This document shows positions 16,177 through 55,369 of a stretch of 64,000 nt of DNA, in pieces; positions within the stretch are counted from its first letter, which is position 1; every line of letters begins with the position of its first letter. The notes under the pieces are model-generated. The model was not told where the DNA came from. It saw nothing but the letters and a program-made list of their open reading frames with translations, and did no database searches. Both the position numbers and the translations under genes were made by a program. This DNA is from Pyruvatibacter mobilis (GTDB taxonomy: Bacteria; Pseudomonadota; Alphaproteobacteria; CGMCC-115125), in NCBI RefSeq assembly GCF_012848855.1, contig NZ_CP051630.1, forward strand, positions 2,335,501-2,399,500. Direction: 5' to 3'.

Positions 16177-16556
16177 GTCTTTACTCCCGTGTTGATGCCG
16201 GTGACGCCCGAAACGGGCGGCGGCGGATCGTAAATTCTCGTCCGGACAGGCCCGGTTGGCCGACTCACGGTCATTTCCGCGTGCGGCCGGGGCCCATCTC
16301 CCCTGCGAGACCCCTGAAAACCGGCGGATTTCCGCTCTTTTGGGGCAGGGCTCTCACATCCCGGCGTGGACTCTTGCACGAAGACAAGCCGCGTCGCTAG
16401 TCCTGCGCACCCCTCAGATTCGGTCATTTTGGCGCTCACGGCGCGCAGCGCCTCCGCGGGGCGGCGCGAAAGCGCCGGCGCCCGGTCGGGCGGGTGGGTG
16501 GGAGACATTGGGGGTGGGCGTCGGGGTCGGTCCTGCCCCATCTCCTCCAACCGTAT

Positions 16557-16686
16557 CCCTCCGGCTTGACCGGAGGGTCTACTCTCGGTGCCGCTTGCCG
16601 CAGTGCATGGGGACGGGTGAGCGCCCTTGCTTCCGGCGCTGCGCCAATCAGCCGAGGCGAGTGGGCCCTCCGGTCAAGACGGAGGG
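16557..16686. repeat. Inverted pair of CTTGA-loop palindromes
   Basis: Hairpin CCTCCGG-CTTGA-CCGGAGG (within 16557-16577) faces the opposite-orientation copy at 16666-16686, whose right arm has one change (GACGGAGG). The outer flanks are also inverted (CCGTATCC before, GGATGCGG after; TCTACTC and GAGTGGG inside). The arrangement resembles REP doublets. From 16177 to 16556, upstream of the dehydrogenase gene, I see nothing beyond a short GCCCG/CGGGC hairpin. Confidence 0.85.
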
Positions 16687-16718
16687 ATGCGGGAATTTGT
16701 GTGGGCGTGGGAAAAAAC

Positions 16719-24991: not shown

Positions 24992-25014
24992 ATGCCGTGG
25001 TCAAGCCACGGCAT
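24992..25014. repeat. Single TCAAG-loop palindrome with different arms
   Basis: ATGCCGTGG and CCACGGCAT form perfect 9-bp arms around the loop TCAAG. It sits just before the AT-richer gene, between it and the aldo/keto reductase gene, and belongs to the window-wide hairpin family with a unique arm sequence. Confidence 0.85.
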
Positions 25015-34150: not shown

Positions 34151-34228
34151 CCCTCCGGTCAAGCCGGAGGGACAGCGGAAATTGGAAAGACCACCCCCCA
34201 ACCGACCTTCCTCCGGCTTGACCGGAGG
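34151..34228. repeat. Hairpin pair after oxyR
   Basis: A forward CCTCCGG/TCAAG/CCGGAGG copy (34151-34171) and a reverse copy (34210-34228) lie 38 bases apart between the convergent oxyR and TetR genes. TGGG precedes the first and CCATGGG follows the second. Confidence 0.9.
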
Positions 34229-35687: not shown

Positions 35688-35833
35688 ACAGGCGAGTGGG
35701 CCCTCCGGTCAAGCCGGAGGGATGCGGGGTTTGGGGCTTTTGGTCGAATTGATACATGCTCAACCACACGCCGGAAGTTGCAGCACACTTTCTCGCCTTC
35801 CCCCTTCCGTAGCCCTCCGGCTTGACCGGAGGG
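35688..35833. repeat. Hairpin pair upstream of the GIY-YIG gene
   Basis: A forward hairpin (35701-35721) lies inside a 49-bp block (35688-35736) that recurs exactly at 36154-36202, after the GIY-YIG gene. A reverse hairpin is at 35813-35833, 22 bases before the gene start. The remaining sequence 35531-35855 has no gene I can support. Confidence 0.92.
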
Positions 35834-35855
35834 CCTACTCGCAGTGCCATGTGGC

Positions 35856-36140
35856 ATGGCGTTCTTTGTGTACATCCTCACCAACCGCAAGCACGGCACC
35901 CTTTATGTGGGGCATACGGATGATCTCGCGCTGCGGCTGGAAACCCACCGGAGTTGGGCTGTGCCCGGCTTTACGAAGGCGCAGGGGCTGGGGCGTCTCG
36001 TTTATTTCGAGCAGCATGACAGCCGGGAGGCCGCACGCAAGCGGGAGCGGCGGCTGAAACACTGGTTGCGGGCGTGGAAAATTCAGCTGATCGAGGACGT
36101 GAATCCGGAGTGGCGGGATTTATCGGCTGACCTGTTGTGA
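35856..36140 (+). CDS. Orphan GIY-YIG nuclease (UPF0213-like)
   Basis: The 94 residues form a single GIY-YIG domain: F-V-Y-I-L-T-N-R-K-H-G-T-L-Y-V-G-H-T carries the two motif strands, followed by L-A-L-R-L-E-T-H with the conserved Arg, F-T-K, R-L-V-Y-F-E-Q-H-D-S and the R-E-R-R-L-K-H-W helix. There is no DNA-binding or UvrC-type partner domain. The family is expected to cleave DNA, but the role of stand-alone members is not established. The gene is bracketed by a 49-bp direct repeat with a hairpin core. The ATG at 35856 begins the conserved A-F-F-V-Y-I. Confidence 0.88.
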   Translation: MAFFVYILTNRKHGTLYVGHTDDLALRLETHRSWAVPGFTKAQGLGRLVYFEQHDSREAARKRERRLKHWLRAWKIQLIEDVNPEWRDLSADLL

Positions 36141-36153
36141 TTTGCCCCGGCTC

Positions 36154-36202
36154 ACAGGCGAGTGGGCCCTCCGGTCAAGCCGGAGGGATGCGGGGTTTGG
36201 GG
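36154..36202. repeat. Second copy of the 49-bp repeat after the GIY-YIG gene
   Basis: Identical to 35688-35736. The hairpin CCTCCGG-TCAAG-CCGGAGG lies at 36168-36186. It begins 14 bases after the GIY-YIG stop and precedes the nrdB end. Confidence 0.95.
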
Positions 36203-36270
36203 GTTTGCTGGAAGCGAAAAGCCCCGCGGGCGGTGCCGCGGGGCTTTGGTGATTCCGGATGTGGCTGTGG

Positions 36271-49184: not shown

Positions 49185-49225
49185 ATACGGAGAAGGGGGG
49201 CATCACCACGTCCCCCCATTTGTCA

Positions 49226-49307
49226 TTCCGCGACTTGATCGCGGAATCCAGGGCGGTCCGCTCAGGCCGTGCCGCATGGCCCTGGACCCCGCGATCAAGT
49301 CGCGGGG
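49226..49307. repeat. Hairpin pair of the CGCGA arm type
   Basis: TTCCGCGA-CTTGA-TCGCGGAA (49226-49246) and CCCCGCGA-TCAAG-TCGCGGGG (49287-49307) are inverted. Inside, TCCAGGGC and GCCCTGGA also pair, so the whole can fold as one long cruciform. Confidence 0.9.
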
Positions 49308-49847
49308 TGACACGGTGGGGGGAGTGAGGTGGATGGCGTCCACCCACACCAAACCCTCCGCACACGGCATTGCCGTTGCGGGCACAGGGGAGAGCAGGAC
49401 GCGCCCGGCGCTCACGCGGCGCCGGTAGGAGTAACAAACAAATTTGGGTCGCAAGCATCAGGCGCGTCCCGCGCGGATGGCTGCCAGCGGTGGCCGGACC
49501 GGGGCGGGGCAGGCATTACCCTGCTGATCCATTCCCCGCGAACCCTGCTTCCACCCTCCACACTTTGGAACGGGCCTGGACGCGGTGGGGCCAGCTTTTT
49601 CAGGGCGTGACCGGGTTCGGGACACCACCACCCATCTAATACGCACCCGTTACTTGCGCATCGCGGCCAAACGCGCGCACCCCACGTTCCCAAGGGGCCG
49701 CCTCTCGCCCGGCCTTCCGGGCATCCGCCCTCCCGCCCAGGTCCGGTCGGCCCGGCTGCCCGTGTGGCGGGAGGTCATGGGGCCATTATCGCGCGAAGTT
49801 CTCAGGCCGGGGAAAAGTCACCCTCACATTCCACACCACCACCGTAT
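49308..49847. other. Gene-free stretch, nothing assigned
   Basis: About 540 GC-rich bases between two hairpin pairs. No open frame has a convincing start, composition or family. I looked for SRP RNA, tmRNA and RNase P motifs on both strands and saw none. Confidence 0.5.
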
Positions 49848-49977
49848 CCCTCCGGCTTGACCGGAGGGCCCACTCGCCTGCGCTGTTGGGCACAGGGTGC
49901 GCGGCTCCTGCTGTGCCGGTTCCGCTCGCGCTGCGGCAAGGCGCACCGAGAGTAGACCCTCCGGTCAAGCCGGAGGG
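49848..49977. repeat. Inverted hairpin pair before the thiolase terminator
   Basis: A reverse hairpin (49848-49868) and a forward one (49957-49977), both CCTCCGG type, flank about 88 bases that themselves contain inverted segments (ACTCGCC and CGAGAGT ends, GGGCACAGG and CTGTGCC). Confidence 0.9.
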
Positions 49978-50012
49978 ATGCGGACAAGGGGCGCGCCGTC
50001 ACCCAAAAACAA

Positions 50013-55153: not shown

Positions 55154-55198
55154 TGGTCCGGACGCTCGCGGCTTCTCACCTACCCCCAACCCCGCTCG

Positions 55199-55369
55199 CC
55201 CTCTGGCTTGACCAGAGGGCCTATCCGAGTCTGCGGGATGGTTTGTGCCGGCCAGGATGACGGCGGTGCGGCATTTTCAGACAAAAACTGCTGAGTCCCA
55301 TGGACCCTCCGGTCAAGCCGGAGGGACAGCGGTTATATTTAGCCGCCCTTCCTCCGGCTCGACCGGAGG
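55199..55369. repeat. Three hairpins before the GlxA-like gene
   Basis: CCTCTGG-CTTGA-CCAGAGG (55200-55218), CCTCCGG-TCAAG-CCGGAGG (55306-55324) and CCTCCGG-CTCGA-CCGGAGG (55351-55369). The first has a compensating C-to-T / G-to-A pair in its arms. The rest of 55017-55473 has no gene. Confidence 0.9.

Follow-up and report, generated by a model that had tools for sequence, protein, structure and literature searches.

The closest described repeats are the CGTC REPs, surveyed by Di Nocera, De Gregorio and Rocco in 2013 (PMC3733652), a source from which we draw on accessible portions only. According to these, CGTC REPs have stems of 8-9 bp that mostly start with AT, loops of 4 or 5 nt, a CGTC or TGTC head and a CCA tail, and form paired units, mostly in Alphaproteobacteria; in all of these features they resemble the hairpins at the homologous loci described below. 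They include Neisseria dRS3 and Rickettsia RPE-4 and RPE-6, and were detected across five phyla, with species of every alphaproteobacterial order examined among their carriers (PMC3733652). They differ from our loci in that no dedicated transposase is reported for them and 'GIY' does not occur in the main text. As far as the accessible text goes, no transposase gene was regularly flanked by CGTC repeats, and the survey closes by stating that these repeats apparently have no dedicated transposase. GTAG is given there as the tag of the REPs linked to RAYT transposases (PMC3733652).

RAYT REPtrons and their REPINs resemble the units studied here in several respects: hairpin repeats enclose one small nuclease gene, paired repeats without the gene are numerous, a genome can contain more than one gene-repeat set, and some genomes have the repeats but not the gene. 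They differ in that their enzyme is a Y1 HUH transposase, which is unrelated to GIY-YIG and is missing from our genome. Insertion sequences with MITE derivatives resemble our unit in having inverted ends, one gene, shorter gene-less copies and presence or absence between relatives, whereas our unit has no known transposase, is only 387 bp in total and shows no target duplication. In the Tsy transposon (PMC10293859), a GIY-YIG nuclease is likewise encoded in a bacterial transposon; judged from part of that paper, it is an accessory beside tyrosine recombinases; removal of the nuclease lowers transposition, but it is not essential, and no inverted repeats were detected there. In Caulobacter, one COG2827 gene carries an SOS box, taken as a hint of a repair role (PMC1839093, in part), and two GIY-YIG genes respond to XRE regulators and a phage regulator, with a possible advantage during infection (PMC10688885, in part). 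No earlier link between GIY-YIG genes and REPs appeared among the matches listed in open PMC papers, as judged from titles and the starts of abstracts, with subscription journals and preprints not covered. Nor did the accessible portions of PMC9465073, PMC10688885, PMC10293859 and PMC6006769 contain such a link; in the first of these, a RAYT and a GIY-YIG gene are separate entries of a gene list.

We interrogated a window of Pyruvatibacter mobilis DNA, by which we mean the whole stretch of 64,000 nucleotides. The original prediction placed a 94-residue stand-alone GIY-YIG gene between two identical 49-bp blocks with a hairpin core. The open reading frame at 35856-36140 indeed encodes 94 aa and matches Pfam GIY-YIG (E 4.5e-13). 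The two blocks (35688-35736 and 36154-36202) agree exactly, the repeat continues to 53 nt if 1 mismatch is allowed, and both copies contain the CCTCCGG-TCAAG-CCGGAGG hairpin. The inverted hairpin copy also lies where it was proposed, ending 22 nt upstream of the ATG at 35856, and the hairpin recurs through the window in 19 copies at ≤3 mismatches (mean 0.06 and maximum 1 in 100 shuffles). Two points need revision. The repeats and the gene are real, but an element with terminal inverted repeats describes the locus better than an orphan nuclease between direct repeats does, and the hairpins belong to, or at least resemble, the CGTC REPs, a superfamily already described. Specifically, the innermost hairpins around the gene are part of inverted repeats of 36 nt (92% complementary) on either side of it, which agree with the terminal-repeat feature of insertion sequences, and this inverted repeat is more telling than the direct one. 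The prediction mentioned neither these inverted repeats nor the further bracketed GIY-YIG genes and the gene-less pairs described below. The coordinates are collected in the table.

Features of the window discussed in the text (+ and -, strand;., no single strand)
Feature	Position	Strand	Basis
Stand-alone GIY-YIG nuclease gene, 94 aa	35856..36140	+	Pfam GIY-YIG 4.5e-13; invariant residues; AF2 pLDDT 94
Left terminal inverted repeat, 36 nt, hairpin 35814-35832 inside	35807..35842	-	92% complementary to 36158-36193; similar ends at 15 gene-less pairs
Right terminal inverted repeat, 36 nt, hairpin 36168-36186 inside	36158..36193	+	pairs with 35807-35842; similar ends at gene-less pairs
Proposed autonomous unit, 387 bp (inverted end, GIY-YIG gene, inverted end)	35807..36193	+	inverted ends; gene-less pairs; site in G001/G003
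Outer copy of 53-nt direct repeat, hairpin 35702-35720 (upstream pair with 35814-35832)	35688..35740	+	
Second copy of 53-nt direct repeat, 1 mismatch	36154..36206	+	
Further hairpin pair 34152 + / 34210 -, same core, ~1.5 kb upstream, outside unit	34152..34228	.	
Gene-less pair, same ends as gene's unit, hairpins 16558 - and 16667 +, spacing 109	16551..16692	.	33 + 35 of 36 end letters
Gene-less pair, same ends as gene's unit, hairpins 49849 - and 49958 +, spacing 109	49842..49983	.	34 + 33 of 36 end letters
Gene-less pair, spacing 106, weakest of 15	55193..55331	.	28 + 27 of 36 end letters; inner tags 6/10 window gene, 5/10 paralogue

Other repeats are present in the window. The segment 37443-37596, between hairpins 37396 + and 37674 -, is a further repeat (CTCTCCCCTTGCGGGAGAGG ... 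GGTGAGGGG) found at more than 20 places among the matches listed in the same genome, at about 71-95% identity and in some cases beside hairpins. Three class I hairpins (24992-25014, 49225-49247 and 49286-49308), to which model R1 gives 32.5-33.9 bits, fall outside the 19 matches to the main hairpin and therefore have other stems.

We then considered the whole 3.33-Mb genome, where the main hairpin has 167 copies at ≤3 mismatches (3 for a reversed-pattern control). Four GIY-YIG matches are present, three of them stand-alone genes and one inside a 654-residue frame that is presumably UvrC and has no main hairpin around it in 3.2 kb. All three stand-alone genes are bracketed by hairpins. The paralogue at 2150511 is located between two hairpin pairs, and the third gene, at 3129170, lies between pairs with a different stem, CCGTGG-TCAAG-CCACGG, followed by GACA, the equivalent of a TGTC head. 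This second hairpin has 9 matches in the genome at ≤2 mismatches (reversed-pattern control 3), four of them at the gene.

Gene-less pairs were drawn from 244 kb of the genome, comprising the window and ten stretches picked as hairpin-rich. In these, 27 gene-less pairs have their hairpins oriented relative to each other like the bracket of the window gene. Fifteen of them (~142 bp, spacing 105-112) resemble the 36-nt ends of the window unit, 14 closely, with means of 32.4 and 33.1 of 36 letters. Since 19 of the 36 letters served as the search seed, the independent part of this comparison is the 10-nt inner tag, which differs between the window gene and its paralogue (GCGAGTGGGC versus AGAGAC/AGAGAT). 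In the family with spacing 105-112, 15/15 pairs have inner tags closer to those of the window gene, one (55200) by a single letter, while 7/8 pairs of a family with spacing 48-52 resemble the paralogue's more, two by a margin of ≤1 letter; four other pairs fit either tag less clearly. Two genes of one genome thus appear to have a gene-less family each. A third set of hairpin pairs (window 53830, 53908, 55200 and 55306; loci L325 and L326) has inner tags with ATGG/ATAG that are a good fit neither to those of the window gene nor to those of the paralogue. The 27 gene-less pairs show no signal of target-site duplication (p 0.30). Target duplications are not made by every family of insertion sequences.

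Beyond this genome, we distinguish two classes of hairpin at homologous genes. Class I has a 9-bp stem, a (T/A/C)CAAG loop and the outside letters TGG-hairpin-GACG; class II has an 8-bp stem, a GNAR loop and the outside letters GTC-hairpin-CCAG. A close homologue of the window protein (E 1e-12) is present in 139 of the 387 alphaproteobacterial genomes searched, with up to 10 matches in one genome (G116). One locus (L104), in which profile search showed no intact gene, was dropped beforehand. We counted hairpins at 103 of 139 loci, excluding those shorter than 11 kb, and used the other ORFs of the same loci as controls. As the original prediction anticipated, hairpins are enriched beside these genes relative to control genes: two-class hairpins stand on both sides of 40/103 homologues and 0/642 control ORFs, 185 of which are shorter than 600 nt, and on at least one side of 64/103 homologues and 54/642 controls. 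No standard hairpin lies within 350 bp of the remaining 39/103 genes. A density count at 59 genes with flanks of up to 6 kb gave 129 perfect hairpins (stem ≥8) per 47.0 kb at ≤400 bp versus 183 per 568.2 kb at >1 kb, and across 152 distinct loci such hairpins occur on both sides of 67, on one side of 53 and on neither side of 32.

A named set of 80 loci was scored with covariance models from the first set, with one locus (L300) common to both; 19/74 class I and 8/46 class II hairpin sequences were omitted from the models, which were built from perfect stems and are therefore unusable as evidence of covariation. Near the genes, 134 model hits fall in 54.0 kb, versus 60 in 648.2 kb farther away (27-fold density), with hits on both sides of 36 genes, one side of 14 and neither side of 30. 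Many named loci without hits have long imperfect inverted repeats that bracket the gene. After dropping 7/80 loci without 200-nt flanks, the inverted repeats around the gene exceed the 99th percentile of 413 control ORFs at 51/73 loci and the largest of these controls at 40/73; 20 of the 27 tested loci with no model hit on either side are also above the 99th percentile. Among 80 pairs of innermost hairpins around a gene, the two belong to the same class in 75, both tag ends point outward in 51 and both point inward in 10. The stem sequence varies between genomes but often matches across one gene.

Named loci with two-class hairpins include those of Henriciella, Roseibium, Limnohabitans and Ramlibacter, and such hairpins are also found at metagenome-assembled Planctomycetota, Omnitrophota, Patescibacteria and Fibrobacteria loci. 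Elsewhere in the phylum, 28 genomes of other classes gave a match; at the 12 loci examined from 12 of them, hairpins stand on both sides (7), one side (3) or neither side (2), mostly with CGTC-type tags. Some loci have other palindromes. Three Bradyrhizobium GIY-YIG genes (L261, L285, L296) stand by ACCCGGAATC-TCGA-GATTCCGGGT or a close form of it, not by the usual tagged hairpin, and Caulobacter and Bradyrhizobium homologues (L238, L240, L229, L285) lie between imperfect inverted repeats of 59-78 nt, which at L240 contain a near-class II hairpin with a mismatched outer pair.

The two classes correspond to the stem and loop sizes of CGTC REPs (8 or 9 bp, 4 or 5 nt), as 9+5 and 8+4, and copies in the window have 8-9 bp and 5 nt. 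The CGTC/TGTC head and CCA tail are also met in the homologous loci, where the class I consensus has them on the reverse strand. Three Azospirillum lipoferum hairpins and most of those in Sinorhizobium meliloti carry the CGTC tags letter for letter, while the hairpins of Novosphingobium aromaticivorans have the CGTC/GACG head without the CCA tail. The window copies differ from CGTC REPs in that their outer tag is mostly CCGY-AT where the CGTC head is expected, and their tail is not CCA. Judged by their letters, most homologues' hairpins match CGTC REPs, and the family of the window is predicted to be a variant. Many + hairpins of the same genome have GTAG or GTGG directly 5', like the tag of RAYT-linked GTAG REPs. 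The three species just named all occur in the accessible text of the CGTC-REP survey (PMC3733652), and in each of them we find GIY-YIG genes bracketed by CGTC-type hairpins. A Neisseria gonorrhoeae record contains a GIY-YIG gene inside a dRS3-type array, with the tag end of the nearest perfect hairpins toward the gene, at this one locus.

Hairpin class follows the protein to some extent. On the protein tree, from which proteins <80 aa were omitted, class changes 22 times versus a mean of 50 and a minimum of 42 in 300 shuffles; an earlier, smaller tree with 15 changes and no shuffle control is superseded. Taking the class from the closest protein of a different genome gives the correct answer in 79% of 159 loci (51% when shuffled). 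In genomes with both classes, the nearest foreign protein is right in 16/26 cases only, indicating that shared ancestry explains part of the link between class and clade, and we reject this covariation as proof of recognition by itself.

Gene presence tracks hairpin richness without following it strictly. Hairpin-rich genomes, defined by ≥10 hits of either class, make up 100 of the 139 with the gene and 33 of the 248 without it, in a comparison that does not correct for ancestry; only this rich/poor division was used because 20 or 21 candidates were scored per genome and counts saturate near 20. Genomes rich in hairpins but lacking the gene had been named as grounds for refuting the link, and they do exist (33/133 at E 1e-12), yet all 33 are assemblies of at least 6 contigs. 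Among rich genomes of ≤5 contigs, the gene is present in 21/21, three of them of the same genus as ours. The 33 rich genomes without the gene, together with the 39/139 gene-bearing genomes that are not rich, exclude a simple law of presence and absence; the hairpins may outlast a lost gene, or the gene may be missing through assembly gaps. A second search of 25 gene-less genomes with ≥9 class I hits, using a wider profile, left 16 without a match at E 1e-5, and the other nine yielded 11 weak matches, 8 without a perfect hairpin within 350 bp and 3 with one or more on one side. No CGTC-type tagged hairpin stands beside any of these 11 more distant homologues. Four homologues (G300:C209, G342:C35, G201:C16, G320:C240) lie close to a contig start (within ~200 bases), a position that would be expected if repeats break assemblies and that makes the absence of the gene from draft assemblies doubtful. 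At least six homologues (G187, G127, G320, G153, G268, G270) have an in-frame stop, as in decaying mobile genes.

Comparison with relatives reveals occupied and empty sites at two loci. In the same-genus genome G001, no element occupies the window locus and the flanking stop codons are ~65 bp apart; in G003, the gene is present there but inverted, with hairpins around it. In A. lipoferum 4B, sufB and sufC are separated by 617 bp that comprise two hairpin pairs and the gene; this spacer measures 55-129 bp in four annotated relatives, and the gene is absent from it in 5/5 relatives examined. Over 50 kb, A. lipoferum has no perfect tagged hairpins other than the three beside the gene, and two relatives have none with a tag in the corresponding 50 kb, where A. 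oryzae has a lone untagged match put down to chance; this indicates that gene and hairpins arrived or left together. Gene and hairpins are jointly absent from relatives at both loci, although gain cannot be told from loss, and because the spacers differ the insertion junctions cannot be set to the base. We also considered whether the gene is cargo of a phage, for which there was no match in the phage collection, or of a plasmid, for which 31 of 32 plasmid records are predicted to be non-mobilizable and many are large replicons; both were set aside. A role as a defence gene was likewise rejected, the window protein having no PADLOC match and no PHROGs match.

The protein has the features of the GIY-YIG superfamily, namely conserved tyrosines, arginine and glutamate. 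Y6, Y17, G19, R27, H31, E64, K68, R72, K75 and W86 are conserved in 45 aligned proteins; the invariant positions include Y6, Y17, G19, R27, H31 and E64, so that residues of catalytic type are retained. The AF2 model of the window protein has a pLDDT of 94, and its best Foldseek match is the UPF0213 protein BH0048 (E 1.1e-4). VIA-align places Slx1 nucleases first (Z 7.5 over 92 residues), followed by BH0048, UvrC-N and I-TevI; Slx1, UvrC-N and I-TevI, among the best matches, score Z 5.8-7.5, and a Z under 8 is modest. By sequence profile, the nearest solved structures are BH0048 (1zg2, 1.1e-10) and EF2693 (1ywl, 6.3e-07). These UPF0213/COG2827 proteins are like the window protein in fold and approximately in size; the 11 distant GIY-YIG homologues mentioned above, whose membership of UPF0213 is unproven, lack CGTC-tagged hairpins beside them. 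The PDB titles of Slx1 entries name branched DNA, and the modelled fold fits an enzyme acting on structured DNA, without showing such activity. The protein of the paralogue has a weak NCBIfam match to a group I intron endonuclease (23 bits, under the 56-bit cut-off).

We propose, with a probability of roughly two in three, that the window gene encodes the sole enzyme of a very small mobile element, one that corresponds among CGTC REPs to a RAYT REPtron, and that the gene-less pairs are its non-autonomous derivatives. The element would end in inverted repeats carrying the tagged hairpin, and gene-less hairpin pairs with the same ends would derive from it. The GIY-YIG enzyme, with its Slx1/UvrC-N fold, may recognise hairpin and tag when an end is extruded or single-stranded, as on the lagging strand, and nick at the tag; host replication and repair could then duplicate the released unit or insert it anew. 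Recognition and cleavage, as well as the strand and the transfer route, are all inferred, no experiment has been done, and transposition has not been demonstrated. The bracketing of an enzyme gene by repeats, as in RAYT REPtrons, is met at the window unit and in the counts for homologues, and the original analogy with RAYTs holds at the level of genome evidence; that the nuclease recognises or spreads the hairpins remains an inference. The Y1 transposase criterion is unmet, so the element would work like a RAYT REPtron yet not be one. A search for the RAYT domain (PF01797; E 0.001) found no Y1 transposase in 15/18 rich genomes, including our own (G000), G001 and G003, and found one in the other 3; for the genome studied here, we therefore reject a RAYT as the agent.

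A different account, in which the gene is a homing-like passenger, must be weighed against this one. Its enzyme would cut pre-existing hairpin pairs and repair would copy the gene in, the hairpins being landing sites and homology arms moved by something else. GIY-YIG proteins belong to a homing-endonuclease superfamily, the paralogue's weak intron-endonuclease match points the same way, the gene often lies between two complete hairpin pairs, and its orientation differs between two same-genus genomes at one locus. Against it, tagged hairpins are missing from two relatives of A. lipoferum, both at the empty site and across the 50 kb around it. It also sits poorly with gene-less families that match gene-specific inner tags, and a Y1 transposase, the most common alternative agent, was not found in 15/18 rich genomes, although other transposase families were outside that search; we regard it as unlikely, if worth keeping in view. 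We find it improbable that the protein is a housekeeping or defence nuclease, which trims or resolves replication-stalling hairpins or acts against phage and is kept by hairpin-rich cells. The closest structures, UPF0213 proteins and Slx1, would suit such a role, as would the tracking of hairpin richness by gene presence and the Caulobacter reports of an SOS box and phage regulation (PMC1839093 and PMC10688885, in their accessible parts). It leaves unexplained, however, why the gene lies inside inverted repeats (51/73) with tag ends mostly outward, and why there are insert and empty sites and up to 10 matches per genome (G116); nor does the lack of CGTC-tagged hairpins at the 11 distant homologues in hairpin-rich genomes, or of a PADLOC match for the window protein, speak for it.

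Simple hitch-hiking, in which hairpins and small genes are functionally unconnected and merely collect at the same intergenic spots that tolerate insertion, could draw on the mostly intergenic location of the hairpins and on the 54/642 control ORFs with one on one side. It is nevertheless very hard to reconcile with the absence of any both-side bracket among 642 controls, 185 of them <600 nt, with stems that vary by genome yet often match across the gene, and with matching inner tags. The hairpins might also have been moved by a RAYT or another known transposase, since lost or located elsewhere, an idea to which we attach next to no credence. The GTAG or GTGG found 5' of part of the window family does resemble the RAYT-linked GTAG tag (PMC3733652, accessible part), and 3/18 rich genomes have a Y1 transposase; against this, G000, G001, G003 and 12 others of the 18 have none, and the 2013 survey, as far as it is accessible, reports no transposase gene regularly flanked by CGTC repeats.

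Our preferred reading, a mobile element whose only enzyme is the GIY-YIG nuclease, has a broader form that we hold to be evenly balanced between right and wrong. In that form, units such as this one are a new class of bacterial transposable element, of ~400 bp, with hairpin-tipped inverted ends and a GIY-YIG nuclease as the sole enzyme; their gene-less derivatives would constitute the CGTC-REP superfamily, including Neisseria dRS3. The chemistry of such an element would have to differ from that of every transposase family known to us, and we know of no GIY-YIG enzyme that forms the covalent intermediates used by some transposases. With a named candidate enzyme and matching repeat families, the question of a CGTC-REP transposase becomes testable. 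If the proposal is true, it would point to a function for many small database entries named 'GIY-YIG nuclease family proteins' and to a possible origin for the dRS3 arrays of Neisseria, and it would suggest that REP systems arose with two unrelated nucleases.
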